49,700 bases of DNA from Bacteroidales bacterium (lineage in GTDB: Bacteria; Bacteroidota; Bacteroidia; Bacteroidales; UBA932). The stretch spans positions 1-49,700 of the forward strand of contig JAFRXI010000066.1 in the NCBI GenBank assembly GCA_017437755.1, in the 5' to 3' direction. Shown here piece after piece: positions 14,215 through 33,273 of the stretch (position 1 is the stretch's first letter; each line of letters starts with the position of its first letter). The position numbers and the translations under genes were made by a program. Below the pieces are notes generated by a model that was not told where the DNA came from, made no database searches, and saw only the letters and a program-made list of their open reading frames with translations.

Positions 14215-15468
14215 ATGCAAAAATTCATCGACAGCTACGACTTCACCGGCAAGAAGGCCATCGTGAGGGTAGATTTCAACGTTCCCCTGAACGAGAATTT
14301 CGAGATTACCGACGACACCCGCATCCGCAGGGCCATGCCCACCCTCAAGAGGGTCCTTGAGTGCGGCGGCTCCGTCATCATCATGTCCCATCTGGGACGT
14401 CCCAAGAAAGTGGATCCCAAGTTTTCACTCAAGCATATCTTAGGACGCGTGAGCGAGTGCCTCGGTGTCCCCGTGCAGTTTGCCGAGGATTGCCAGAAGG
14501 CCGATGCCCAGGCCGCGGCACTTAAGCCGGGCGAGGCCCTTCTCCTTGAGAACCTCCGCTACTATGCCGAGGAGGAAGGAAAGCCCCGCGGACTCGCCGA
14601 GGATGCTTCAGAAGAAGAGAAGAAGGCCGCCAAGGCCGCCGTCAAGGAAAGCCAGAAGGCTTTTGTGGCCAAGCTCGCTTCCTACGCCGACTGCTACATC
14701 AACGACGCCTTTGGTACCGCACACCGCGCACACGGTTCTACCGCCCTCATAGCCAAGTATTTCCCGAATGACAAGATGTTCGGATACCTGATGGAAGGTG
14801 AGATCAAGGCCATTGACAATGTGCTCAAGAACGCCGAGCGTCCCCTTACCGCAATCATCGGCGGTTCCAAGGTTTCTTCCAAGCTTGCAGTGCTCGAGAA
14901 CCTCGTCGGCAAGGTTGACAACCTTATCATCGGCGGCGGCATGGGCTATACCTTCATCAAGGCCGAGGGCGGAAAGATCGGTCTCTCCCTCCACGAGGAC
15001 GACCTCATCCCCCAGGCTCAGGAGATAATGCGGATTGCCCGGGAAAGGGGTGTGAACCTCTCGCTCTCCGTACAGACCCGCGTTGCCAACGACTTCAGCA
15101 ATGACGCTGAAACCAAGCTCGTCCCGTCACATGAGATTCCCGACGGCTGGGAGGGAATGGACGCCGGTCCCGAGTCGCTCGCAAAGTGGAGGAAGATCAT
15201 ACTCGCCTCCAAGACCATCCTCTGGAACGGTCCCGTGGGCGTTTTCGAAATGCCTTCCTTTGCAAAGGGAACCCTCCAGATCGCCGAGGACCTCGCCGAG
15301 GCCACTGCCAACGGTGCCTACACCCTCGTGGGCGGCGGAGATTCCGTTGCTGCAGTCACCCAGATGGGCTTTGCCGACAAGGTGAGCTACGTTTCCACCG
15401 GCGGCGGCGCCATGCTCGAGGCCATCGAGGGCAAGGAACTCCCCGGAGTCGCCGCAATCCGCGAGTAG
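14215..15468 (+). CDS. pgk: Phosphoglycerate kinase
   Basis: The 417-residue protein is full length for the family and catalyses the ATP-forming step of glycolysis, 1,3-bisphosphoglycerate + ADP to 3-phosphoglycerate + ATP, in the cytoplasm. Visible motifs are [11 protein letters not shown] and SHLGRPK in the N-terminal substrate domain, the basic patch around [23 protein letters not shown], and [15 protein letters not shown] plus GGGDSVAAV in the C-terminal nucleotide domain. The start at 14215 follows the promoter by 38 bp. Heavy use of C/G-ending codons suggests high expression. The stop codon lies within a short tandem duplication, and two hairpins follow it. Confidence 0.97.
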
Positions 15469-15481: not shown

Positions 15482-15560
15482 CAGATACCCGTGGCGGCCA
15501 ACCGCCTGGATATCTGCGATTTACAACAATCAGGGGTAGCCATCGAGGCTACCCCTGATT
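15482..15560 (+). terminator. Two tandem hairpins after pgk, probable terminator
   Basis: The first hairpin (15482-15516) pairs CAGATA with TATCTG around an inner GGCGG/CCGCC stem. The second (15528-15560) is a perfect 14-bp stem, AATCAGGGGTAGCC with GGCTACCCCTGATT, around loop ATCGA, but only a short T-run follows. The second is the better terminator candidate. Confidence 0.7.
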
Positions 15561-15610
15561 TGCATAAGGCATTATCTGTCAAGCATTTATCCGCCACGCA
15601 ATCTGGCGAG

Positions 15611-15663: not shown

Positions 15664-17760
15664 ATGAAACGAATCCTTACATTCATCGCTATGGCACTCA
15701 TCATGGCAGGATGCGCTCCCAAGGCCCCGGTGGCAAGGGAGGACGGCACCGTTGACGAATATTTCGGCGAGAAGGTCGCCGACCCTTACCGCTGGCTCGA
15801 GGACGACAATTCCCTGGAGACCGCCGCCTGGGTGAAGGCACAGAACAAGGTCACCGACCATTATCTCAAGGGTATCCCGTTCCGTGGGAAGATCCTCAGC
15901 CGCCTCAAGGAAGTGAGCAACTACGAGAAGGTGGGCGTCCCTTACAAGGAGCGTGACGGAAAATGGTACTTCTTCCGCAATGACGGGCTACAGAACCAGA
16001 GCGTCATGTACCAGATGGACACCCCGGACTCCGAGCCGAGGCTTTTCCTGGACCCCAACAAGCTTTCCGACGACGGGACCGTCGCCCTCAAGGGCACCTA
16101 TTTCAACAAGGACGGCTCCCTCATGGCATATTCCATATCCCGCAGCGGAAGCGACTGGCAGGAGTTCTACGTGATGGATGTCAATACCGGCAAACTGCTT
16201 GACGACCACATCGAATGGGCCAAGTTCTCAGGCGCCGCCTGGAGGGGCGACGGCTTCTATTACAGTGCCTACGGCATCCCCGAGGAAGGGCACGAATTCT
16301 CCGTCAAGAACGAGGGCCACAAGGTCTTCTACCACAAGATAGGGACGCCCCAGACGGAAGACACCCTGTTCTACGGGAATCCCGACGAACCGCTCCGCTT
16401 CTACCTCCTGGACACCAACGAGGAGGAGACCATGGCTTTCCTGTACGAAGACGGGGCCGATGTGGGTAACAATCTCTACGTCATGGACTTGCGCATCCCC
16501 GACGGAAAGTTCGTACAGATGACTGCGGACATGAAGAACTCGTGCAACCCGGTTGAGACCGACGGTGACCTGATTTACATCCTCACAAACCGCGAGGCTC
16601 CGATGAACCGCCTGGTGGTGGCCGACATAAAGAACCCGTCCTACACCGCCTGGAAGGATGTCCTTCCCGCAGGCGGATGCGTGCTGGACGGGGTGACTTT
16701 CGCCGGAGGCAGGCTGATTGCCACCTACATGCAGGACGCCGCCACCCATGCCTACGCATTCGCACCCGACGGCTCGGGCAAGACGGAGATCGCCCTCCCC
16801 GGCCTTGGCAGCGCATCTTTCTCCGGAAAGAAGGGCGAGGAGGAATGCTTCTTTGCATACTCTTCCTTCACGACTCCCGGCACTATCTACCGCATGGATA
16901 CGGAAACACTTGACAGCAAGGTGTTTGCAAAGCCTGAAACCGCATTTGAGACCGACGGCTTTGAAAGCGTCCAGGTGTTTTTCCCCTCCAGGGACGGCAC
17001 CATGATTCCAATGTTCCTGACCTACCGTAAAGGCATGGTCCCCGACGGGACCAATCCCGTATACCTATATGGCTATGGCGGATTCGACATATCCCTCACC
17101 CCCGGTTTCTCCGCCATGAGGATTCCCTTCCTGGAAAAAGGCGGAATCTATGCCCAGGTCAACCTCCGGGGCGGCGGCGAATACGGCGAGGCATGGCACC
17201 TTGCCGGCACAAGGATGAACAAGCAGAATGTTTTCGACGATTTCATCGCGGCTGCGGAATGGCTTATAGCTCAAGGGTATACATCCAAAGAGAAACTTGC
17301 CATAGTGGGCGGTTCCAACGGAGGCCTCCTTGTAGGCGCCTGTATGACCCAGAGGCCCGACCTCTTTGCCGTGGCCATCCCACAGGTGGGAGTCATGGAC
17401 ATGCTCCGCTACCACAAATTCACCATAGGATGGAACTGGGCGCCGGACTACGGCACCTCGGAGGAGAGCCAGGAGATGTTCCGCTACCTCAGAGCCTACT
17501 CCCCTCTCCATAACCTGAAACCGGGAACGGCCTATCCGGCCACGCTCGTGACCACAGCCGACCATGACGATCGCGTGGTCCCCGCCCATTCCTTCAAGTT
17601 TGCCGCTACATTGCAGAAATGCAATTCCGGCGACAAGCCTGCCCTCATCCGCATCGACACCAAGGCCGGACACGGCGGCGGCAAGCCCCTCGCGAAAGTC
17701 CTTGAGGAGCAGGCCGACATCTACGCCTTCATAATGTATAACCTGGGGATGGAGTATTGA
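15664..17760 (+). CDS. Prolyl oligopeptidase family serine peptidase (S9A), lipoprotein
   Basis: The 698-residue protein starts with a lipoprotein signal (lipobox IMAGC). Residues of about 30-420 form the seven-bladed propeller (DPYRWLEDDNSLETAAWVKAQN at its entry), and the C-terminal part is an alpha/beta hydrolase. VGGSNGGLL gives the nucleophile S551, ADHDDRVVPAHSF the catalytic Asp (635 or 636) and KAGHGGGKP the histidine H670. It should cleave short peptides after proline in the periplasm or at the surface. The stop lies 3 bp from the end of the convergent DUF2723 gene, with no room for a separate terminator. Confidence 0.94.
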   Translation: MKRILTFIAMALIMAGCAPKAPVAREDGTVDEYFGEKVADPYRWLEDDNSLETAAWVKAQNKVTDHYLKGIPFRGKILSRLKEVSNYEKVGVPYKERDGKWYFFRNDGLQNQSVMYQMDTPDSEPRLFLDPNKLSDDGTVALKGTYFNKDGSLMAYSISRSGSDWQEFYVMDVNTGKLLDDHIEWAKFSGAAWRGDGFYYSAYGIPEEGHEFSVKNEGHKVFYHKIGTPQTEDTLFYGNPDEPLRFYLLDTNEEETMAFLYEDGADVGNNLYVMDLRIPDGKFVQMTADMKNSCNPVETDGDLIYILTNREAPMNRLVVADIKNPSYTAWKDVLPAGGCVLDGVTFAGGRLIATYMQDAATHAYAFAPDGSGKTEIALPGLGSASFSGKKGEEECFFAYSSFTTPGTIYRMDTETLDSKVFAKPETAFETDGFESVQVFFPSRDGTMIPMFLTYRKGMVPDGTNPVYLYGYGGFDISLTPGFSAMRIPFLEKGGIYAQVNLRGGGEYGEAWHLAGTRMNKQNVFDDFIAAAEWLIAQGYTSKEKLAIVGGSNGGLLVGACMTQRPDLFAVAIPQVGVMDMLRYHKFTIGWNWAPDYGTSEESQEMFRYLRAYSPLHNLKPGTAYPATLVTTADHDDRVVPAHSFKFAATLQKCNSGDKPALIRIDTKAGHGGGKPLAKVLEEQADIYAFIMYNLGMEY

Positions 17761-23828: not shown

Positions 23829-25901
23829 ATGAGTAAAAGAAGTGAAAAGAAGCGCGGAGGACGGTCCTCCGCCCGTGCCGGAAGGTCCGGTGCACAAAGG
23901 AGCCGCAAAGCAAGGGCGGCAGGAAAGGGCGCTCCCCAGTTCGAGGGAAGCGTAAGGATGACCCGGGACGGATTCGTATTCGTGTCGGTAGAGGGGCATG
24001 AAGAGGAAATCTATGTAAAGGCCGGAAGGACCAGGGGCGCCCTCCACGGCGACAAGGTCCGGGTGGCCGTCAGGAAACGGGGCGGTTCACACCATGTCCT
24101 TGAGGGAGAGATAACTGAAATAATCGAGCGCTCAGCCAAGCCCTTCGTGGGTATCCTCCATATAGTGGGTGCACAGGCGTGGGTGCTGATGTCCAGCAAG
24201 TTCATGCCGTACGACATATCTGTGGACATTCCCGAAGGCGGCAAGTCCGGGATGAAGGTCGCCGCGGTGGTCGACGGCTGGGACAGGGGCGAACCCGGTC
24301 CCCGCGGACACGTGGTGGACATCCTCGGCATGCCGGGCGACAACGACACCGAGATGCATGCCATCCTTGCAGAATTCGGCCTCCCCTACCGGTTCCCCAA
24401 GGCAGTGGAGGACGCTGCAGACAAGATTTCGGAACAGATAACCGACCGCGACCGCGCAGGCCGCCGCGATTTCAGGGATATCCTCACCTTCACCATCGAC
24501 CCTGCAGACGCCAAGGACTACGATGACGCCCTGTCCATGCGGAAACTCCCCGACGGCAACCTCGAGGTGGGAGTGCATATCGCCGACGTGTCGTACTACG
24601 TAAAACCCGGGTCCGACGTGGACAAGGAAGCCCAGGCGAGGGGAACGTCGGTCTACCTGGTGGACAGGACGGTCCCGATGCTTCCGGAAAAGCTTTCAAA
24701 CAAGCTGTGCTCGCTCCGTCCCGGTGAAGAAAAGCTCACATTCTCAGTCGTTTTCGAGATAACTCCCAACGGGAAGATACTGCTTCCGTGGATAGGCCGT
24801 ACCATGATCAGGTCGGACTACCGCTTTGCATACGAGCTCGCCCAGGAGATAATCGACGCCGGCCCTGGGGCCATGGAAAAGGATTTTGGCGAGGGGTCGG
24901 AATGCGGAATCGTACCTGCCGACGTCAAGGAAGCCATACTCGAACTCAACCGCCTGGCCCTGATGTTCCGCAAAAAGAGGTTCGCCGCCGGTGCAATAAG
25001 CTTCGACCGCCCAGAAATGAAGGTGGAGGTTAACGAAAAAGGCGTCCCTGTGAACGTTTACCAGAAGGTTTCCAAGGAAGCCAACTGGCTGATAGAGGAA
25101 TTCATGCTGCTGGCCAACCGCCATGTGGCCGAGTTCGTGGCCTCCGACGGCCACTTTGGAGGAAAGGCGGTAAAGAACCCCAAGACCTTCGTATACCGCG
25201 TGCATGACGAACCCAACCTGGAGAAACTGTCTTCTCTCAGGTATTTTGCCGGGAACTTCGGCTATTCTGTCGGTCCCACCGGCAACGGTAAGGAAATCGC
25301 CCAGTCGCTGAATACCCTTCTGGACCAGGCCAAGGAGAAGCCGGAATTCGGGGCGCTGGAACTGCTTGCCCTGCGTTCCATGGCAAAAGCCTGCTACAGC
25401 ACCGACAACATCGGCCATTACGGCCTTGCATTCAAGTTCTACACCCATTTCACCTCCCCTATCCGCCGTTACCCCGACATGATGGTACACCGCCTCCTCA
25501 CCCTGTATCTCTCAGGGGCCGAGAGCCAGGACAACGGATATTATTCCCAGCAGTGCAAGCATGCCTCGGAAAGGGAGCTGGTCGCTGCCGAGGCCGAGAG
25601 GGAAAGCGTGAAGTACAAGCTGGTGGAATTCATGCAGGACAAGGTGGGCAAGGAATTCGACGGCCATATCTCAGGCCTCACCGAATGGGGTATGTACGTT
25701 GAGATAGAGCCCACAATGATAGAGGGTATGATTCCGCTCCGGGAGATCAGGTCCGACTTCTATGATTTTGACATGGACAACTACCTGGTCCGGGGCCGCC
25801 GCACCCACAAGGTTTTCCGCCTGGGCGACCAGGTCAGAATACGCGTAAAGGCCACCAACCTGGACCAGAAGCTGCTCGACTATGAGCTCGTGGAACTCTG
25901 A
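23829..25901 (+). CDS. rnr: Ribonuclease R
   Basis: The 690-residue 3'-5' exoribonuclease degrades structured RNA. A very basic N-terminal tail of about 35 residues precedes cold-shock/OB domains (EGSVRMTRDGFVFVSVEGHE). The RNB catalytic domain has the metal-binding motif TIDPADAKDYDDAL and the later HFTSPIRRYPDMMVHRLL. A C-terminal S1 domain is visible (FDGHISGLTEWGMYVEIEP to RVKATNLDQKLLDYEL). It is slightly short for RNase R because no clear lysine-rich C-terminal tail or HTH region is present. Its end overlaps recO by 20 bp, so the two are cotranscribed. Confidence 0.95.
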   Translation: MSKRSEKKRGGRSSARAGRSGAQRSRKARAAGKGAPQFEGSVRMTRDGFVFVSVEGHEEEIYVKAGRTRGALHGDKVRVAVRKRGGSHHVLEGEITEIIERSAKPFVGILHIVGAQAWVLMSSKFMPYDISVDIPEGGKSGMKVAAVVDGWDRGEPGPRGHVVDILGMPGDNDTEMHAILAEFGLPYRFPKAVEDAADKISEQITDRDRAGRRDFRDILTFTIDPADAKDYDDALSMRKLPDGNLEVGVHIADVSYYVKPGSDVDKEAQARGTSVYLVDRTVPMLPEKLSNKLCSLRPGEEKLTFSVVFEITPNGKILLPWIGRTMIRSDYRFAYELAQEIIDAGPGAMEKDFGEGSECGIVPADVKEAILELNRLALMFRKKRFAAGAISFDRPEMKVEVNEKGVPVNVYQKVSKEANWLIEEFMLLANRHVAEFVASDGHFGGKAVKNPKTFVYRVHDEPNLEKLSSLRYFAGNFGYSVGPTGNGKEIAQSLNTLLDQAKEKPEFGALELLALRSMAKACYSTDNIGHYGLAFKFYTHFTSPIRRYPDMMVHRLLTLYLSGAESQDNGYYSQQCKHASERELVAAEAERESVKYKLVEFMQDKVGKEFDGHISGLTEWGMYVEIEPTMIEGMIPLREIRSDFYDFDMDNYLVRGRRTHKVFRLGDQVRIRVKATNLDQKLLDYELVEL

Positions 25902-26535
25902 GCTGATTGTCCTCGCATATACCAAATTCGGCGAGAGGAGCATTGTCCTCCACACCCTCAGCAGGGAATGGGGGCGCCGGGGCTTCCTGGTAAGGGTCGG
26001 GAAGGGCGTTTCCACGGCCCTGTTCCTCCCCCTCAACATTCTTGAAGCCGAGATTGTGGAAAACCCCAAATCTTCGCTGTGGACCGCCAGGAAGGTGGTT
26101 TCAGCCCATCCCCTGGTCGGGATACGGGGCAATATCCACAAGAATACCATGACCCTTTTCATGAGCGAGGTTCTCTTTCGGACACTCCATGAAGGCACGT
26201 TCGAGGAGGGGCTCTTCGAGTGGTGCCGGTCCAGCATACTCACTCTGGATTCACTTGAGGGGAACTTTGCAAATTTTCACCTGAGGTTCCTTCTGGAGCT
26301 GGCCGTGGCCATGGGTTTCAGCCCGTCTGCCGAATCCATCGCCCCCTTTGCCGGAGGGTACCTGACCCAGCTGCGCGGCTTCATGGAGGCCTCTTTCGCG
26401 GAATCCATGCTCATTCCCCTCTCCGGAGGCGAACGCACGGAAATAGCCCGGAGCCTGCTGGACTACCTCCAGCATCACACCGAGCAGTCGATCAACGTCC
26501 GTTCACTTAAGGTCCTGCACGAACTTTACCGCTAG
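25882..26535 (+). CDS. recO: DNA repair protein RecO
   Basis: The 217-residue protein starts inside the end of rnr at ATG 25882 (MSSWNSELIVLAYTKFGERS). The N-terminal OB-fold strand pattern VLAYTKFGERSIVLHTLSRE and FLVRVGKGVS are typical of RecO, followed by the helical C-terminal domain. RecO works with RecF/RecR to load RecA on SSB-coated gaps. The family is poorly conserved in sequence, but the size, N-terminus and rnr overlap support the call. It is followed by a GC-rich spacer and then the 48-bp palindrome, which probably ends its transcript. Confidence 0.88.
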   Translation: MSSWNSELIVLAYTKFGERSIVLHTLSREWGRRGFLVRVGKGVSTALFLPLNILEAEIVENPKSSLWTARKVVSAHPLVGIRGNIHKNTMTLFMSEVLFRTLHEGTFEEGLFEWCRSSILTLDSLEGNFANFHLRFLLELAVAMGFSPSAESIAPFAGGYLTQLRGFMEASFAESMLIPLSGGERTEIARSLLDYLQHHTEQSINVRSLKVLHELYR

Positions 26536-26605
26536 AGGCGCCTCCCCCCACGCCCCTCCTCTCCCACCGCGACAGCGTAAACCGGAAACGATTGAGAGTT
26601 AAGAC

Positions 26606-26653
26606 TTTACACAAAAGCACCTAGTGCAATTGCACTAGGTGCTTTTGTGTAAA
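26606..26653. terminator. Perfect 48-bp palindrome (hairpin H1) between recO and the fimbrillin-like gene
   Basis: The 24 bases at 26606-26629 are exactly complementary to 26630-26653, starting TTTACACAAAAGCACC and centred on CAATTG. The genes on both sides are convergent and a short T-run lies at each foot, so it can work as a bidirectional terminator. It belongs to a longer module repeated 3380 bp away (29993-30064), which suggests a role beyond termination. Confidence 0.75.
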
Positions 26654-26684
26654 CAACAACAAATCAATGATTTACATTTTACAG
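26613..26684 (+). repeat. Hairpin module copy 1 (hairpin, 25-bp spacer, TTACATTTTACAG)
   Basis: Aligns without gaps to 29993-30064 with 50 of 72 positions identical by hand count. The shared hairpin core is AAAAG(C/T)ACCT(A/G)GT on the left arm, and the final 13 bp (26672-26684) are identical in both copies. Confidence 0.8.
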
Positions 26685-26690
26685 TAGCTA

Positions 26691-28703
26691 TCAATTCTTG
26701 GTAAACTTCCGGCAGCGGACATTCAGCGCAACCGCTGACCAGGGAAGATTATCATAGCCAAAACTTGAGTCATTGGAATACAGCATCTGAGCCCTGCGAA
26801 AAAGTCTGGTCAAATCGTTGTTTGCATTATAATATGTCCAATGCATCACACGTTCTCCAACTACCGATCGGTATCCGTTCCAAATCTGTCCGGCGGCAGG
26901 CCACCACAAGAGGTTTTCATCTTTAAGGAAATACTTTCCGGCAAAATCTTGATTTCCAGCACCTGACATGTTTTTCCTCACAATGCTAACATTCAACCCT
27001 GCCTGATAAGGATAGGTAGCCGACGGAAGAACATATCCTGGGGGACATGGATCATAGTCGGTTAGTTTCTCTTGTATGTTGTTATTGTTTGTTTTCCACA
27101 ACCATACCACACCATCACCTCCGGTATTACTTCCACTTTGAACGATTGTTGTCCAAATATATTCCGTATTATTATTAACCGTAATGTTGTTTCCATCTGA
27201 CGTTTTAGCTGTTTTAAAATAAGCATAGTTGCTATAGCTCTCCTGCTCACTTACACTATTCTTGGCGCCCGTGGTTGTCGTAAAACCATGATGATAATTG
27301 CTGAAAGCATATTTCAAAGCTACTTTTACATTTGCCCACTGGTTAGCATAAGCGCCACTCTCAAATCTCTCCATCCTCGGATATGGAATATGGTTGCCAT
27401 ATTGGTAAAAGGTACCGCTTGAGGAGAGAAGCTGCTCCAAAGTCATGCCTTCTATTTCCGCCACCGTTTCTGGTGCCCAGGTCGCCCCAAGATCCCTGTC
27501 CATAAAAGGCTGGGGCATACCTGATCCAGTTATAACATCTGCAGGCTTGTCGGTTACCCAGATATGGAAATTCCACAGGAGGGAGGTGTTTGCAGCTGCC
27601 GGCTCGTTCTGGTCTACGCCAATGACGGCATTACCATCCTCGTTGTTTCCCCCGTAAAGGAATGAAATGTATTCCCCGTCGTAGCAGATATTATTGATCA
27701 ACGTGCGCGACTCAGACCATACAATGCTGGCGTTTTTCATATTCTCAAAAGTACCTCCTTTAATCTTCATGGCGGGGAACTTGTACGCCGCAGGAGACTC
27801 ACCTTTCTCAACCAGGTAGCAGTTCGCTCTGCCTCCGTTTGCACTCAGGTCAATGGCTTCATTTACCCTGTTGAACAGGGCATCGGTATCGACGGTTGCA
27901 ATCCGGCGCACCTTGTTCCGATTTACCTTTATCTCACTTCCAGTAACAATGCTGGCCGATGTTCCGTCCGCAAACTCGAGCACAATACAGCATTCTTTAT
28001 AAGTTGCCGGCGGAACAACTACATAGAAATGCTTGGGCTCGGAAGATAACGCCGTCCCTCCGGCAGCAACGGTGACATATGAGTATTGTTTTTTCCCTCC
28101 TGTAGCAGTTGCCGGAAATTCCAGCACAGGAAGGTCCACGGAAGAATCCATGGTAGCCTCGCCGGAAATATGGCGGGAATTCTCCACATTTGTCCTGAGT
28201 GTAAGCTTTGAAAGCTGCTTTGAACCGGTCAGCGGGAAATCTATATATCCGCAAAGGTTGGTGAAACGGATTGTCCCGTCAGTAACCTTTCCAATCATGG
28301 GATTAGCCCCGTTACCCACAACTTTTCCTTCATTGTAATTCTGTTTAGTGGCTATGGTATAGGTCCCGGTGGTCCCGGAAACAGTCAGAGCTGCGGAAGG
28401 ATAAACCACCCACTGGGTACCCTCGGGAACCTCGAAAACGGCATTCCCCTCCACTGTGGTTTCAACCAAAACGCAATTTTGGGTAACAGTTCCGCTTTCA
28501 CCCACCGCCACAATCTTGTCACTGTCATTCCATGTCCATTCCAGCGGAAGGCCATCGCCGTCAGGGGTCAGGCTAACCTTGGAATCAGCAAATACCGCCT
28601 CCATCCTGACCATTTTCACCTCACCTGCGGTTTGAGTGTCAATCTTTTCTACGCTGCAAGAAACAGTAAGGCTGATAACAGCAAATGCACATAACTTCTT
28701 CAT
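26691..28703 (-). CDS. Fimbrillin-like lipoprotein with FISUMP-like C-terminal region
   Basis: The 670-residue protein has a lipoprotein signal (MKKLCAFAVISLTVSC). Residues of about 25-280 resemble the N-terminal part of fimbrillin (Mfa/FimA) proteins: KVSLTPDGDGLPLEWTWNDSDKI, WVVYPSAAL, and PKHFYVVVPPATYKE. The C-terminal half has MDRDLGATWAP, YDPCPPGYVLPSA and the end ALNVRCRKF, typical of Fibrobacter-major-paralogous (FISUMP)-like domains. It is probably surface-exposed, perhaps a fimbrial tip or adhesin-like protein; the role is inferred. A strong SD (AAGGAGGAG) overlaps the stop of the 44-codon ORF just upstream. Base composition is more AT-rich than in neighbouring genes, consistent with transfer. 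Confidence 0.75.
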   Translation of the reverse strand: MKKLCAFAVISLTVSCSVEKIDTQTAGEVKMVRMEAVFADSKVSLTPDGDGLPLEWTWNDSDKIVAVGESGTVTQNCVLVETTVEGNAVFEVPEGTQWVVYPSAALTVSGTTGTYTIATKQNYNEGKVVGNGANPMIGKVTDGTIRFTNLCGYIDFPLTGSKQLSKLTLRTNVENSRHISGEATMDSSVDLPVLEFPATATGGKKQYSYVTVAAGGTALSSEPKHFYVVVPPATYKECCIVLEFADGTSASIVTGSEIKVNRNKVRRIATVDTDALFNRVNEAIDLSANGGRANCYLVEKGESPAAYKFPAMKIKGGTFENMKNASIVWSESRTLINNICYDGEYISFLYGGNNEDGNAVIGVDQNEPAAANTSLLWNFHIWVTDKPADVITGSGMPQPFMDRDLGATWAPETVAEIEGMTLEQLLSSSGTFYQYGNHIPYPRMERFESGAYANQWANVKVALKYAFSNYHHGFTTTTGAKNSVSEQESYSNYAYFKTAKTSDGNNITVNNNTEYIWTTIVQSGSNTGGDGVVWLWKTNNNNIQEKLTDYDPCPPGYVLPSATYPYQAGLNVSIVRKNMSGAGNQDFAGKYFLKDENLLWWPAAGQIWNGYRSVVGERVMHWTYYNANNDLTRLFRRAQMLYSNDSSFGYDNLPWSAVALNVRCRKFTKN

Positions 28704-28715
28704 ACTGTCTCCTCC

Positions 28716-28850
28716 TTAAAAGATAATGGGATCACCTTCTTCCGGTTCCGGAACCTCAACCTGGTCAACTGTCTGATTACTTGCGAAATTACTGCTCACC
28801 ACAACGTGAACAAGTTCGCAAAGGGGTAATTCATACTCTTTACGTGTCAT
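28716..28850 (-). CDS. Small ORF (44 residues) upstream of the fimbrillin-like gene
   Basis: ATG at 28850 opens a 44-codon frame starting MTRKEYELPLCELVHVVV and ending VPEPEEGDPIIF, with its TAA at 28716-28718 running straight into the SD of the lipoprotein gene. A full-consensus promoter lies 22 bp upstream, so it is the first cistron of this transcript. The pattern (basic start, Tyr-x-x-Pro, hydrophobic stretch, acidic end) resembles short peptides that I associate with the 5' side of fimbrillin-like genes in Bacteroidota. There is no signal peptide or obvious membrane helix. Function is unknown; a translation-coupling leader or a small secreted/chaperone partner are possibilities. Confidence 0.65.
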   Translation of the reverse strand: MTRKEYELPLCELVHVVVSSNFASNQTVDQVEVPEPEEGDPIIF

Positions 28851-28871
28851 TTTATTATGTCGTTAGTAGGA

Positions 28872-28903
28872 CAAAATTACTTCCACATAGCGTATTATCC
28901 AAA
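28872..28903 (-). promoter_or_regulatory. Promoter of the small ORF and fimbrillin-like gene
   Basis: On the minus strand TTTG (28900-28903), a 20-bp spacer and TAATTTTG (28872-28879) match the consensus fully. The 44-codon ORF starts 22 bp downstream. The region up to 29031 otherwise holds only the AT-rich upstream part of the divergent transposase gene. Confidence 0.72.
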
Positions 28904-29031
28904 TGATAACTGCCCAAAAAGGCGTTTTACGCATATTCTTGCCCCATTTTGCAATATAAAACTTGCTATTTCCAATTCATTTCAGCATCTTTCGGAAGTA
29001 TAATGAAATGGTTTTCCAAGAGGGGGCGGAT

Positions 29032-29994
29032 ATGGGGCGCACGAAAAGGAAATTCTACAAAGGTATTCTCAATCACTGCTATCAGAGGACCGCAAACCGG
29101 ATTCTGTTGTTTTACTCTGAAAGCGATTTTCTGGTTTTCTTCACAATCTTTTGCATAGAGGCCCGCAAATACAGGGTCGTTATCTTGAGTCTGTGCCAAA
29201 TGCCAGACCATATCCACGTCTGCATCTGTGCAGAAAGCATGGAAGACCTGAGCGGCTTTGTCAGAAGTTATACCCAAAAATTTGCCTTTGTACAGAACAA
29301 GACCTGTAATTGGAAAGGGGCTCTTTTTGAAACCCCGTTTGGAAGTGCTCCCAAATATGGCGATAAAAAAGCCAGGACCAATTTGATTTACATTGGAAAC
29401 AATGCTCCCGAAAGAAGGCTTTGCTCAAAAGCCGAACAGTATCGATGGAATTACATAGCTTACGCCGCCAGCAATAATCCATATTCAAACAGGATTGTCA
29501 TCAGGTATACATCTTTCTCCCTTATTAAGGCAATCCGAGAAGTAAGATACAGCTATTCAAGCGGCAAGCCACTTCAATACACCCAACTTCAACGATTGTT
29601 CAAGACCCTGACACGTACTGAAACAGAGCAGTTTATAGATTATTGCATTTCATTGTATAATGTAATTGATTACGAGAAAGCCATCAGCTTCTTTGGCACA
29701 TATGACAGAATGCTCACAGCCATGCACTCCAATACAGGCAGTGAATATGACATTAATGAAAGATTTACCGGCAAAAGCGATCTATGCTATGCCAACATGT
29801 CTTCACTTATCATGGAGAAACTGAAACTGGACGATGTACACGATATGTTTTTGCTGCCAGAAAAAGAAAGGATAAAACTGATTCCTTTTCTCAAGAACCG
29901 TACTGACGCTTTTCCTGAACAAATAGCTGCATTTCTTCGTCTTCCACATAGCGACCGCAAAACAGAAACAACTATCATTCAGCGCTTTAAATAA
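29032..29994 (+). CDS. REP-associated (IS200-like) HUH tyrosine transposase
   Basis: I chose ATG 29032 (MGRTKRKFYKGILNHCYQRT), preceded by a purine-rich AGGGGG-like RBS; the frame is open upstream to 28963 but without family features. H60-I-H62 in CQMPDHIHVCI is the HUH metal-binding pair, and Y120 in NLIYIGNNAPERRL aligns with the candidate nucleophilic Tyr of the RAYT motif YIxxNPxRA. EQYRWNYIAY matches the usual following segment. Residues of about 150-320 form an extension whose last part (PEKERIKLIPFLKNR, then FPEQIAAFLRLP) looks like a helix-turn-helix. Such enzymes cut and rejoin single-stranded DNA at hairpins. Its TAA stop is part of the stem of hairpin H2. A weak -7-like TATTCTTG lies at 28934-28941. 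Confidence 0.88.
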   Translation: MGRTKRKFYKGILNHCYQRTANRILLFYSESDFLVFFTIFCIEARKYRVVILSLCQMPDHIHVCICAESMEDLSGFVRSYTQKFAFVQNKTCNWKGALFETPFGSAPKYGDKKARTNLIYIGNNAPERRLCSKAEQYRWNYIAYAASNNPYSNRIVIRYTSFSLIKAIREVRYSYSSGKPLQYTQLQRLFKTLTRTETEQFIDYCISLYNVIDYEKAISFFGTYDRMLTAMHSNTGSEYDINERFTGKSDLCYANMSSLIMEKLKLDDVHDMFLLPEKERIKLIPFLKNRTDAFPEQIAAFLRLPHSDRKTETTIIQRFK

Positions 29995-30027
29995 AAGTAC
30001 CTGGTACGTTTGCACCAGGTACTTTTA
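29992..30027. terminator. Hairpin H2 after the transposase, bidirectional terminator-like
   Basis: A 14-bp stem (29992-30005 with 30014-30027), core AAAAGTACCTGGT/ACCAGGTACTTTT, encloses loop ACGTTTGC. T-runs follow on both strands, and it lies between the convergent transposase and GH89 genes. The transposase TAA stop is built into the left arm. Confidence 0.75.
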
Positions 30028-30064
30028 CATAAATATCTATTCTGCAACAGGTTACATTTTACAG
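29993..30064 (+). repeat. Hairpin module copy 2 (hairpin, 25-bp spacer, TTACATTTTACAG)
   Basis: Same layout and orientation as 26613-26684. Two stem base pairs differ by compensatory changes: T29998-A30021 against C26618-G26641, and G30003-C30016 against A26623-T26636. The terminal TTACATTTTACAG (30052-30064) overlaps the stop codon of the GH89 gene. Confidence 0.8.
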
Positions 30065-32245
30065 CCCCAAAGCGGAGTACTTCTCCACCAATGCGGCGGC
30101 TTCTTCCACAGGATGGCGGAAAGGCTTGACAGGGCTGAGGCCGACAGCGGCGGGGAAGCCAGCATTGTCAAAGGCGGCCATGTCGGGAGTCTCACCCGCA
30201 ATCACGGAATCGAAATAATACTTGAGCCTGGGGATGTAATAGTCACGGATCAGGCCCGACCAGATGCGGGCCGAGTAGTCATACAGCGAGCGTCCGCCCC
30301 ACACGGAAATCAGTTTCTTGGCCTCCAGTTCAAAGGCATCGGCCTCCTCCGGCGAATAAGCCGCCCCGCGGGCGAAGTCCAGCCAGCGCTGCGTCCGCCA
30401 GACAGGATGCGATTCCAGAAGCCGGTCGGTATCGGAGAGTATCTCCAGCAGCAGCGCCTCCTTTTCAGATGCGGCGGCAAGTTCCTTACGCTCCACAGCC
30501 GCATACAGCGAGTCCAGCACGATGTCAGCCTTGCCGGCCAGGTACAGCGCCCCGTATCCGATTGCGTCAATCTCGTAAAGACGATTCCCCCGGAAGTTCT
30601 CCCTCTCGGATATAAAGTCTTCAATGGCAGCGAAATAGTGTTCGTTGACATTCATTGAATAACTTTTCTTGAACGGAGGACGCCTCTGCCAGCGGAAACG
30701 GACGTTACTGGTGAAATTGGAATACGGCGACTTGAGCATACCGTCCCAGAAAGCCTTTATTCCCGGGGCGGTCCTGCCGTATCGGGCACGTGTATAGCTG
30801 TCCAGGAAAGCGTCCGGGTCCACCTTGGACCCGCTCCAGCCGGCAGCAGCAATCGCCTCGTATGCAACCTCGTTGTTTTCAACACCTTCCGGTGATGTTC
30901 CAAAGCCCACAAGGTTGCCCCTGTTCGGGGATCCGGCAGCCAGGAGATGGTTGTTCAGGAGGAATTCCAAAGGGCCCACCAGACCCGTCCGGCCACCGAA
31001 GTTGGGAACCGTGCTCCATATCCACCCCTTTCCGAAGAATCCGCTCAGGTAATCCCAGCTCTTCTCGCTCTTCCACACGTATTCGTTGAAATCCACCGCC
31101 AGGTCTATTACCAGCATCTTGTCGTCGGGAGCCCCGGCAAGGAGGTCGCACACGCTGGCAGGATCCCATTCCTTCTCCCTCTGGTAGCCGAACATCCATC
31201 CCTGCAGTACCCACACAGCATCCGGATTGGCCTCGGCCACGCTCTCGTAGAGCTTGCGCGAATAGAGCCTCAGGTTTTCGCTCCGCTGATAGCTTCCCAG
31301 CGGCCCGAAGGGCACCTTCATCTCATTGAAACTGTCTATCAGATAATACTTTCCCTTTCCGAACTCCTTCTCCCATTCCCGGATGAAAGCCGAACCGACC
31401 TGCTTGAAAAGAGGGTCGAGGGGAGAAAGCATATGGTTGTGGTCCTCCTCGGGGAAGGTGCTCCACTTGGTCTCGGTGAGGTCGGCATCGGGGAACACTT
31501 CGGCAAATCCCTTGGGAACGAATCCGGCAAATCCCTGATAGACAGGTGTCATTCCCAGTTCCTTCTCCCTGGAGTCAATCTTGTGCTCCAGGGCAATCTG
31601 GCCGTCGAACCACTCCTTGCTCATCCCGCCGCAGTAGTGGGCCATGTTGCCCATCCTCATCCAGGGGAAATGTGCCGGCCCGGTGAAATAATCCAGGATC
31701 TGCTCATCGGAGAGTCCCATGCCCTTCCACACACGGGCGAGGATGGTCTCGCCGCCGATTGGCGAAAGCGGCATGTCAAAGCCGTGCAGGGCCATCCAGT
31801 CAATCTCTTTCTCCCACTGTTCCCAGCCCCAGAAGGGATAGGTATACCCGTAGGTGCATACGTTCTGGTACAGGTGCACGGCATAGGGCGAGACAACCTC
31901 CCGGCGCCCCATTTCAGGAAGGCGGCGGGGCAGGTCGAGCCGGTTCCCGGTCCAGGAAGCTATCCCGTATCCGTTTGAGAGGATATAGTCATGGAAGCCC
32001 TTGCAGATGGCGACGCCAGTGCTGCCTTCCACTGTAAGGATTCCGTCGGAAACCATTGTAGCATAACGGTTTACGGTATCCGATCCCTCAATCGAGCAGA
32101 ACCGGACATTACGCGGAAAACGACCGAATGTCCTTTCCACCACGGCCTTTGCGGCCTCGGCCGAAGGACTGCCGTCGGTAGGGGCGACGCCCCCACAGCC
32201 GGTAAGCGCCATCAGCAACGCAGCAAACGGAAATACAAAACGCAT
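30059..32245 (-). CDS. Alpha-N-acetylglucosaminidase, GH89 (NAGLU-like) lipoprotein
   Basis: The 728-residue protein starts best at ATG 32245 (MRFVFPFAALLMALTGC, a lipoprotein signal); the frame continues to 32263, but that would overlap manA. An N-terminal small domain leads to the GH89 barrel with YQNVCTYGYTYPFWGWEQWEKEIDWMALHGF, LSPIGGETILARVWKGMGLS, GPAHFPWMRMGNM and YLIDSFNEMKVPFG, all matching human NAGLU and bacterial GH89. It removes terminal alpha-linked GlcNAc, as on gastric mucin O-glycans or heparan fragments. It is the last gene of a long run of minus-strand genes, 11 bp after manA. The pairing with a GH20 enzyme in the same region fits host-glycan use. Confidence 0.93.
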   Translation of the reverse strand: MRFVFPFAALLMALTGCGGVAPTDGSPSAEAAKAVVERTFGRFPRNVRFCSIEGSDTVNRYATMVSDGILTVEGSTGVAICKGFHDYILSNGYGIASWTGNRLDLPRRLPEMGRREVVSPYAVHLYQNVCTYGYTYPFWGWEQWEKEIDWMALHGFDMPLSPIGGETILARVWKGMGLSDEQILDYFTGPAHFPWMRMGNMAHYCGGMSKEWFDGQIALEHKIDSREKELGMTPVYQGFAGFVPKGFAEVFPDADLTETKWSTFPEEDHNHMLSPLDPLFKQVGSAFIREWEKEFGKGKYYLIDSFNEMKVPFGPLGSYQRSENLRLYSRKLYESVAEANPDAVWVLQGWMFGYQREKEWDPASVCDLLAGAPDDKMLVIDLAVDFNEYVWKSEKSWDYLSGFFGKGWIWSTVPNFGGRTGLVGPLEFLLNNHLLAAGSPNRGNLVGFGTSPEGVENNEVAYEAIAAAGWSGSKVDPDAFLDSYTRARYGRTAPGIKAFWDGMLKSPYSNFTSNVRFRWQRRPPFKKSYSMNVNEHYFAAIEDFISERENFRGNRLYEIDAIGYGALYLAGKADIVLDSLYAAVERKELAAASEKEALLLEILSDTDRLLESHPVWRTQRWLDFARGAAYSPEEADAFELEAKKLISVWGGRSLYDYSARIWSGLIRDYYIPRLKYYFDSVIAGETPDMAAFDNAGFPAAVGLSPVKPFRHPVEEAAALVEKYSALGL

Positions 32246-32256
32246 GGGAACAATGT

Positions 32257-33273
32257 TTAACAATGTGACGTAAGTATCTTCACCAAGGGTGAAGCGGGCT
32301 TCAGGGTAATGCCCCTGGATGTTGCCGGAACAAGGACCGTTGTGCCCCGGCCGAGCCGGACCACATGCCCCTTAGTGGCCGTAGGAAGCCCGTCAGGGCC
32401 GAAGAGCGGCTCGGAATCCTCAAGCACGCACTCCCCTTCCATGCACATCACCACCAGGAACGAATCCAGATCCTCCAAAGGGATGTTCAGGGGGGCGTCA
32501 AGGACATAGAGGTCAGTGGTGAAGCAGTTGCATTCCACCAGCGGAACCTTCTTGTCGACGGCCGGCTCATAGTCCGTCCTGTATGACGGATACACCTTAT
32601 AATCAAGTGCTTCCCTGGCAAGGGCTGTGTGCAGTTGACGCGGCTTTCCATCCAATCCGGGACGATTGTAATCGAACACGCGGTAGGTGAGGTCGCCACT
32701 CTGCTGGATTTCCGCCAGGAAGGTGCCGGCACAGATGGCATGCACCCTGCCGGCGGGAATGAAGAACACGTCACCCTCCTTCACCGGATGGTCGGCAAGG
32801 ACATCAACTATCTTTCCTGAGGCAACCAGCGAATCATATTCCCGAGGGGTTATCTCCCTTGAAAAACCGCTGTAAAGATGGGCCTTCGGGGCCGAATCCA
32901 TCACGTACCACATCTCGGTCTTCCCAAAGGGCTTTCCATGCACCCGGCGGGCCATTTCATCATCCGGATGAACCTGGATCGAGAGGTCGCCAAAGGCGTC
33001 GATGAACTTCACCAGCAGCGGGAATTCGCCTCCGAAGCGTTCATACACGGACTTCCCGACCAGGGCTCCCTTGAATTCCTCCACCAGCGACGGCAGGGAA
33101 CGTCCCCTGAGGGAACCCGAAGCAACGGTGGACTCCCTGCCGGGAACGGCCGAAACCTCCCAACTCTCGCCTACCTTTTCGGGCCCTTCCGCCAAACCTT
33201 TATATGAAAGTATCCTCTCCCCGCCCCATACCATGGGAATGAGAAGCGGCTCGAATATCAGCGGATATAGCAT
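32257..33273 (-). CDS. manA: Mannose-6-phosphate isomerase, class I
   Basis: The start MLYPLIFEPLLIPMVWGGERIL at 33273 is preferred over 33309, which would run into the M3 peptidase gene. The 338-residue cupin enzyme interconverts mannose-6-phosphate and fructose-6-phosphate in the cytoplasm. The zinc site is seen in QVHPDDEMAR (Gln and His), FGKTEMWYV (Glu) and GDVFFIPAGRVHAI (the later His). Length fits the short Bacteroidota type. It lies 23 bp after the M3 peptidase gene and 11 bp before GH89, so the three are probably cotranscribed. Confidence 0.92.
   Translation of the reverse strand: MLYPLIFEPLLIPMVWGGERILSYKGLAEGPEKVGESWEVSAVPGRESTVASGSLRGRSLPSLVEEFKGALVGKSVYERFGGEFPLLVKFIDAFGDLSIQVHPDDEMARRVHGKPFGKTEMWYVMDSAPKAHLYSGFSREITPREYDSLVASGKIVDVLADHPVKEGDVFFIPAGRVHAICAGTFLAEIQQSGDLTYRVFDYNRPGLDGKPRQLHTALAREALDYKVYPSYRTDYEPAVDKKVPLVECNCFTTDLYVLDAPLNIPLEDLDSFLVVMCMEGECVLEDSEPLFGPDGLPTATKGHVVRLGRGTTVLVPATSRGITLKPASPLVKILTSHC

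Follow-up and report, generated by a model that had tools for sequence, protein, structure and literature searches.

The locus described here raises the question of why, in the genome of a gut Bacteroidales bacterium (assembly GCA_017437755.1), a gene for a nuclease resembling REP-associated tyrosine transposases (RAYTs; REP, repetitive extragenic palindrome) and a lipoprotein gene are enclosed by two copies of one 112-bp module. The locus lies in the window, the 49,700-nt stretch of contig JAFRXI010000066.1 that was analysed, and an initial annotation had proposed a mobile or domesticated unit carrying or diversifying a surface lipoprotein gene. We found that such modules are associated with one RAYT family, covary in their paired stems, are dispersed through the genome, resemble one another in their cores within a locus, and occur in excess at rearrangement junctions. 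The most probable reading, with the mechanism proposed below included, is a REPtron of a kind not yet described, in which the RAYT gene stands between two copies of the REPIN-like element that belongs to it.

A palindromic module conserved in shape

The repeat unit was originally drawn as 72 bp, and the two stretches concerned (26613-26684 and 29993-30064) do align without gaps, with 50 of 72 positions identical. Scored as a 72-mer, the right copy reached 50 against the left on the forward strand and 45 on the reverse, and none of the other 72-mers of the window (both strands, more than 100 bp from the left copy) scored over 34. The true unit is longer, however: a length of about 110 bp was first seen from the left-right alignment at the window and its relatives, and alignment centred on the hairpin gave a 112-bp dyad, symmetrical on both strands, in which conserved positions keep their distance from the centre irrespective of hairpin length. 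Over this full length the window copies are identical at 73 of 112 positions. The plan comprises a 12-bp outer stem, CTGATAATCA-like sub-palindromes and a central hairpin of about 10-14 bp, its shape being kept while its letters vary. The 13-mer TTACATTTTACAG, first described as a conserved downstream sequence, is present in both copies as the 3' arm of the outer stem rather than as a separate site, and its two occurrences in the whole 2.88-Mb genome are both at the window modules. Compensated stem pairs between the two copies are also real, and number three (C-G to T-A twice, A-T to G-C once) rather than the two first counted; set against them, the right copy loses three stem pairs, and one further pair becomes G-T.

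Pairing was assessed across relatives, starting from 41 RAYT loci (40 fetched and the window). Nine lacked a clear left-right match and five more (L058, L068, L072, L073 and L078) were set aside by eye; the remaining 27 loci provided 54 modules, 40 of which, from 21 loci, form alignment A1, with 14 poorer-fitting modules excluded. The outer stem is paired in 82.7% of A1 cells and the central hairpin in 85.9%, with 10 of 12 and 14 of 14 pairs, respectively, changed on both sides at least once, compared with 55.7% of all cells after shuffling and 34-42% when partners were slid. Three of five covariation measures exceeded every shuffle. Because the modules were located via the hairpin, the outer stem is the fairer test of covariation; its paired fraction was 0.76 over all 54 modules (0.37-0.40 slid) and 0.61 in the 14 excluded ones (0.35-0.45 slid). 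The foot in A1 is CGT- or CTG-like in most modules and GTGG in some, several modules terminating in GTGG...CCAC; the module does not conform to typical REPs, with their GT[AG]G tetranucleotide at the foot.

Other identities were considered for these sequences. A known RNA family was rejected, with zero Rfam matches for the window at gathering scores, and an attC-like integron site was considered on shape alone. The idea that a left module close to the RAYT had been overlooked in the gap after the lipoprotein gene was also dismissed, a scan of 28600-29150 with filters off having peaked at 3.1 bits.

Association with one RAYT family and dispersal in the genus

The Y1 gene reported by the initial annotation is well founded (28.7 bits with Pfam Y1_Tnp, whose cut-off is 23), and its product has Escherichia coli TnpA-REP as the closest structural match, whose fold it shares. 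The window protein has His60, His62, Tyr120 and Asn124, followed by a long, helical C-terminal part; H60, H62, Y120, N123 and N124 are invariant across 33 sequences and across 60, corresponding to the HUH and Y---N(P) motifs of TnpA-REP/RAYT proteins, with proline at position 125 in the consensus and alanine in the window. The NCBIfam model for REP-associated tyrosine transposase gave 23.2 bits against a cut-off of 80, which places the protein as a relative outside the named equivalog. A PHROGs search gave zero matches, and a sequence search of the PDB at best weak ones to Y1 transposases (E 0.05). One scan of the lineage yielded 201 related stretches. An exact 13-base repeat, CTTCCACATAGCG, lies upstream of the window RAYT gene (28880-28892) and near its end (29941-29953).

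The association between module and enzyme was examined with a covariance model, R1, in which both window modules are included and by which they are also scored (Table 1). It was run on 72 loci outside the training set (80 minus 8 that share contigs with earlier loci), some of them from species near the training ones and some stopping at a contig edge. A module was found within 330 bp of the RAYT gene in 70 of the 72, upstream in 60, downstream in 55 and on both sides in 45; at 16 loci the next module on one side was 1.0-2.9 kb off rather than near. A further 23 Y1 loci were searched to a distance of about 1.5 kb: of three family members, two had a module and one did not (L152, in genome G036), and around the other 20, which hold Y1 genes of different types, none was found. 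These results tie the modules to this RAYT family and set them apart from generic terminators. Three tandem modules follow the RAYT gene at L055:6038-6416. The diverged RAYTs of L072 and L073 (both genome G006) are flanked by matching hairpins missed by the module model, perhaps a second element type.

Modules are also dispersed elsewhere in genomes. A survey of 61 genomes of the same order (37 of the genus and 24 others; E <= 0.001, at most 62 candidates scored per genome, so that match counts, which cover both strands, are lower bounds) found modules in 29 of the 37 genus genomes and weak matches in 2 of the 24 outside it. Within the genus, 21 of 22 genomes with a family RAYT hold modules, as do 8 of 15 without one. 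The genome of the window has, among the 150 candidates scored out of 821, at least 24 distinct modules at E <= 0.001 and at least 27 at E <= 1, at least 22 of its copies being additional to the window pair. By eye they belong to several core families, and the ACCTGGT-type core of the window pair recurs in three others. Of 25 placed modules, 5 are at contig edges, 7 between convergent genes and 13 between tandem ones.

This gene context bears on a rival view, in which the modules serve chiefly to end transcription from both sides where genes converge, and in which their tie to RAYTs is incidental or a secondary use. Runs of A and T flank the central hairpin in the window copies, both of which sit between convergent genes, and convergent junctions are favoured both in the same genome (7 of 20 modules against 20 of 137 neighbouring ORF (open reading frame) pairs) and at the RAYT loci of relatives (64 of 149 against 95 of 433), as judged from simple ORF calls. 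However, termination requires neither a constant length of 112 bp nor a dyad whose outer stem covaries, and terminators would hardly be confined to one genus, or stand beside a single Y1 family while being absent around 20 Y1 genes of other kinds. We regard a mainly terminating function as quite improbable.

In comparisons of 38-nt cores, modules of the same locus (within loci of up to 11 kb) had a mean identity of 0.71 (167 pairs), compared with 0.42 for randomly paired cores. Cores at orthologous positions in different species were 0.50-0.62 identical where the flanks were 60-88% identical (330 pairs) and 0.70-0.73 where the flanks were at least 88% identical (42 pairs). In the ftsZ/gltX/msrA/truB block (genes named by eye), module positions are kept, and each genome has its own core at both ends. 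These sequence comparisons point to homogenisation of the hairpin cores within a genome, from one module to its neighbours. Loci with more similar RAYTs also have more similar cores (rho 0.34 over 52 loci; 0 of 999 permutations), a correlation to which shared species ancestry contributes.

Rearrangement junctions and the enclosed genes

Junctions were sought by comparing 112 RAYT loci (72 and 40) all against all, after high-scoring segment pairs of the RAYT alone had been dropped; a junction interval was one at which adjoining blocks are turned round or sit elsewhere in a relative, and expectations came from intervals of equal length placed at random in the same loci. Modules are found in excess at the rearrangement junctions of related loci: a module lay in 71 of 101 intervals (29.5 expected), in 28 of the 41 intervals of at most 350 bp (40 bp margin; 3.8 expected) and in 22 of the 35 that lie over 500 bp away from RAYT (1.5 expected). 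Among the clear cases, L219 carries a 3.9-kb gltX-msrA-RAYT block, flanked by ftsZ and truB, in the opposite orientation to L204, L190, L212 and L239. In L251 it is the msrA-RAYT segment, lying between gltX and truB, that is inverted when compared with L204, and modules stand at both its ends. The RAYTs of L251 and L204 are only 38% identical, and the second case could therefore reflect replacement instead of inversion. A 2.9-kb module-bounded cassette (RAYT and 1.7 kb), 92-95% identical, has different neighbours in L217, L225 and L231. The inversions were observed between species. No reports of inversions or breakpoints at REP sequences or such elements were found in the literature searched, which covered few subscription journals.

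Either the RAYT or plain recombination may have made these rearrangements. RecA-type recombination, or assembly errors at repeats, could produce the junction excess with the RAYT uninvolved, an explanation that is compatible with the REPtron reading and that we give nearly even chances. The likeness of same-locus cores (mean 0.71) could permit rare homologous exchange or mislead short-read assembly, and five genomes retain modules without a Y1_Tnp match. On the other hand, one arrangement is repeated in several metagenome-assembled genomes (MAGs; L190, L204, L212 and L239 against L219), and module copies can differ as much as the window pair; neither point is decisive.

Empty sites were sought at two positions. 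None was found between recO and the glycoside hydrolase family 89 (GH89) gene among the recO loci of 29 relatives (1.5-kb flanks) and that of the genome itself, the relatives being species too distant to settle the matter, with recO 38-65% identical. For msrA-truB, matches to the query protein came from 80 of 101 genomes, mostly as two separate halves; the sites inspected were the five loci with a fused gene (L250-L254), of which L251 alone has RAYT, modules and truB, in inverted and not empty form. The fusion was read by eye in L204:2931-3872, a single ORF joining a GAF-like to an MsrA-like part, halves that match separate places or frames in most genomes searched.

In the window (Table 1), the order recO > module < lipoprotein, RAYT > module < GH89 matches that of L204, gltX > module < msrA, RAYT > module < truB. 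The islet is AT-richer than its surroundings, as first stated, with a GC content of 0.41 in the Y1 gene and 0.47 in the lipoprotein gene against 0.55 for the whole window, in which no second Y1 gene was reported.

Table 1. Positions of the modules and of the genes around them in the window
Feature	Position	Strand	Remarks
Left module, 112-bp dyad	26574-26685	.	between convergent recO and lipoprotein genes; 79.9 bits (+), 67.9 bits (-); outer stem, sub-palindromes, central repeat
Central perfect inverted repeat of left module	26606-26653		
Right module, 112-bp dyad	29954-30065	.	75.1 bits (+), 62.5 bits (-); overlaps final RAYT codons and GH89 gene end
RAYT-like (TnpA-REP type) Y1 HUH nuclease, 320 aa	29032-29994	+	ATG at 29032; Pfam Y1_Tnp
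Lipoprotein, 670 aa, family unassigned	26691-28703	-	within module-bounded segment
44-aa ORF	28716-28850	-	upstream of lipoprotein gene; ORF reading; zero Pfam matches
recO	25882-26535	+	left flank, converges on left module; Pfam RecO_N, RecO_C
GH89 alpha-N-acetylglucosaminidase	30059-32263	-	right flank, converges on right module; Pfam NAGLU domains
Third module, different core family	15488-15600	.	63.7 bits; outside R1 training set
Phosphoglycerate kinase-like	14215-15468		neighbour of third module; named from translation, no profile search
Prolyl oligopeptidase-like	15664-17760		neighbour of third module; named from translation, no profile search

The lipoprotein had been called fimbrillin-like, a label that finds no Pfam support even at E <= 1, although the protein does start like a lipoprotein (LTVSC, by eye). 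Its relatives were sought in 61 genus genomes, and the four closest (40-46% identical) had neither module nor RAYT in the 6-11 kb fetched, two of them being visible on one side only owing to a contig end; the lipoprotein was accordingly rejected as a recurrent passenger. At the 45 test loci with modules near the RAYT on both sides there is little room for passengers, and those seen elsewhere are of other kinds (an S41 peptidase from Pfam; sigma-54 regulator-like and MsrA-like ORFs by eye). Because those four relatives lack modules and RAYTs in the flanks seen and other loci hold other genes, the segment between the modules probably just happens to contain the lipoprotein gene, as it might any other. 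The mobile unit first envisaged survives in part: module-bounded segments relocate or invert between relatives, and the special tie to a surface lipoprotein finds no support. In two species, alike ORFs of about 200 aa and unassigned family lie between the left module and the RAYT at L055:4276-4962 and L057:4544-5134 (by eye), a possible partner gene.

A passenger-carrying mobile element, in which RAYT and lipoprotein move together as a cargo unit, would be consistent with the cassette shared by L217, L225 and L231, with the 16 test loci whose next module is 1.0-2.9 kb away, and with the AT-rich islet. Against this stand the variety of passengers, the four lipoprotein relatives away from modules and RAYTs, and the other family RAYTs of the same genome (assembly 85% complete), which are just 36-38% identical to that of the window, so that recent transposition of the gene is not seen. 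Joint movement as cargo therefore seems unlikely to us.

Relation to known REP systems and implications

As described in PMC3116915 and PMC8266576, a REPtron consists of a RAYT gene with palindromes on its borders, and a REPIN of two REPs arranged symmetrically, with compensatory changes. The locus agrees with both descriptions: its RAYT gene is bordered by palindromes that are also dispersed through the genome, and the module has two inverted ends, fixed spacing and a hairpin-forming spacer with compensatory changes, the ends not being GTAG REPs. Like the REPIN/RAYT system of Bertels and Rainey 2011 (PMC3116915), in which a clover fold is proposed for the REPIN single strand, the modules are symmetrical, extragenic and associated with their own RAYT, and share the fixed spacing and the compensated, hairpin-forming spacer. 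They differ from REPINs as portrayed there in being longer (112 bp), in having outer arms that vary by family in place of an invariant 16-mer, in lacking a GTAG requirement, in their sequence turnover between species and in lying at rearrangement junctions.

Among the TnpA-REP subclasses of Quentin et al. 2018 (PMC6006769), subclass 2.6 is mainly from Bacteroidetes, and its genes lie between atypical secondary structures that are also present elsewhere in the genome, features that the present system shares; its NH[LIV]H and YIH[QN]NP motifs and length of about 179 aa differ from the DHIH, YIGNNA and 320 aa of the window protein. Subclass 2.4, with YIxNNP, NH[IFV]H and WQ and with REP insertions in the gene, has some likeness in its YIxNNP motif and double-foot REPs, the latter recalling the modules that end in GTGG...CCAC; in this comparison by motif, the tyrosine motif fits many family members, whereas the window HUH and WQ do not fit. 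Family members are about 290-360 aa long (alignment A2), against medians of 179 (2.6) and 194 (2.4) given there. Compared with class 2 of TnpA-REP as that text presents it, the window HUH is DHIH and not NH-type, and the W-Q residues contacting GTAG were not seen by eye in the 33-sequence alignment. Likeness also extends to TIRtrons/TIRYT (PMC3733652), where a RAYT-like gene lies between long terminal inverted repeats (TIRs) that are not GTAG REPs and of which some are double palindromes present elsewhere in the genome; the comparison is with their description, which also gives them a GGGGWSAS motif. The Y1 HUH nuclease and hairpin ends recall IS200/IS605 elements (features in part from PMC6006769). 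Unlike these, the module system has dispersed solo ends and symmetric palindromes at both ends, and lacks several near-identical copies per genome, the family members being 36-38% identical. A REPtron/REPIN is thus a known kind; the form found here is undescribed, and a possible role in recombination is the more interesting part.

In the REPtron reading, the RAYT would bind modules folded as single strands, such as might arise on the lagging-strand template, and cleave at the module foot via Tyr120. It would copy or replace modules in place, thereby keeping enzyme and cores matched. Modules would then provide the joints about which whatever they enclose, in this case RAYT and lipoprotein, inverts or moves through RAYT strand transfer or recombination between like modules, the lipoprotein most likely being a chance occupant.

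Several observations count against this interpretation. The outer stem is imperfect in the window, DNA folding forming the left one partly and the right one not. Two of the five covariation measures fail to stand out from the shuffles, with 28 pairs showing a double change where shuffles give 28.1, and 92 further pair types where they give 88.4. Side arms are paired in just 67% of A1 cells, leaving hairpins there unproven, and may be conserved sequence instead; for this reason our claim is limited to a long two-level palindrome as read from the sequence, a cloverleaf fold being a possibility. Left and right modules have no fixed relative orientation, consistently inverted repeats having been rejected (11 inverted, 9 direct, 7 tied). 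Several core families coexist in the window's own genome, and cores are therefore not uniform genome-wide. As to the enzyme, G036 carries a family RAYT and no R1 module, and eight genus genomes hold modules without a family RAYT: three of these (G011, G016 and G027) have other Y1 genes, and five (G001, G002, G013, G014 and G030) have no Y1_Tnp match at E <= 0.001, weak or partial RAYT-like matches being present all the same in G001, G002 and G014. The 41 narrow junctions are not independent: grouped by homologous site they make 9 sets, 7 of which have a module in one member or more and 3 in every member. Finally, the relatives are mostly MAGs, and some joins could be misassemblies.

Genome G030 (97% complete) has at least 31 modules (at least 62 matches) and no Y1_Tnp gene found at E <= 0.001; its modules may outlive their enzyme, or use an overlooked one.

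A stronger proposal is that a RAYT-family HUH nuclease runs structure-guided rearrangement, with recognition of a folded 112-nt DNA from its shape and a family-specific core, inversion or relocation of module-bounded chromosome segments by single-strand transfer, rewriting of cores, and co-evolution of site and enzyme. We consider this unlikely; if true, the rearrangement system would be functionally nearer to an integron or shufflon than to a plain repeat spreader. How RAYTs benefit their hosts and how RAYT repeats spread are long-standing open questions. This lineage offers a cognate element conserved in shape and with testable boundaries, a core turnover linked to the enzyme, and junctions at the elements, thereby opening RAYT-dependent recombination to direct test.

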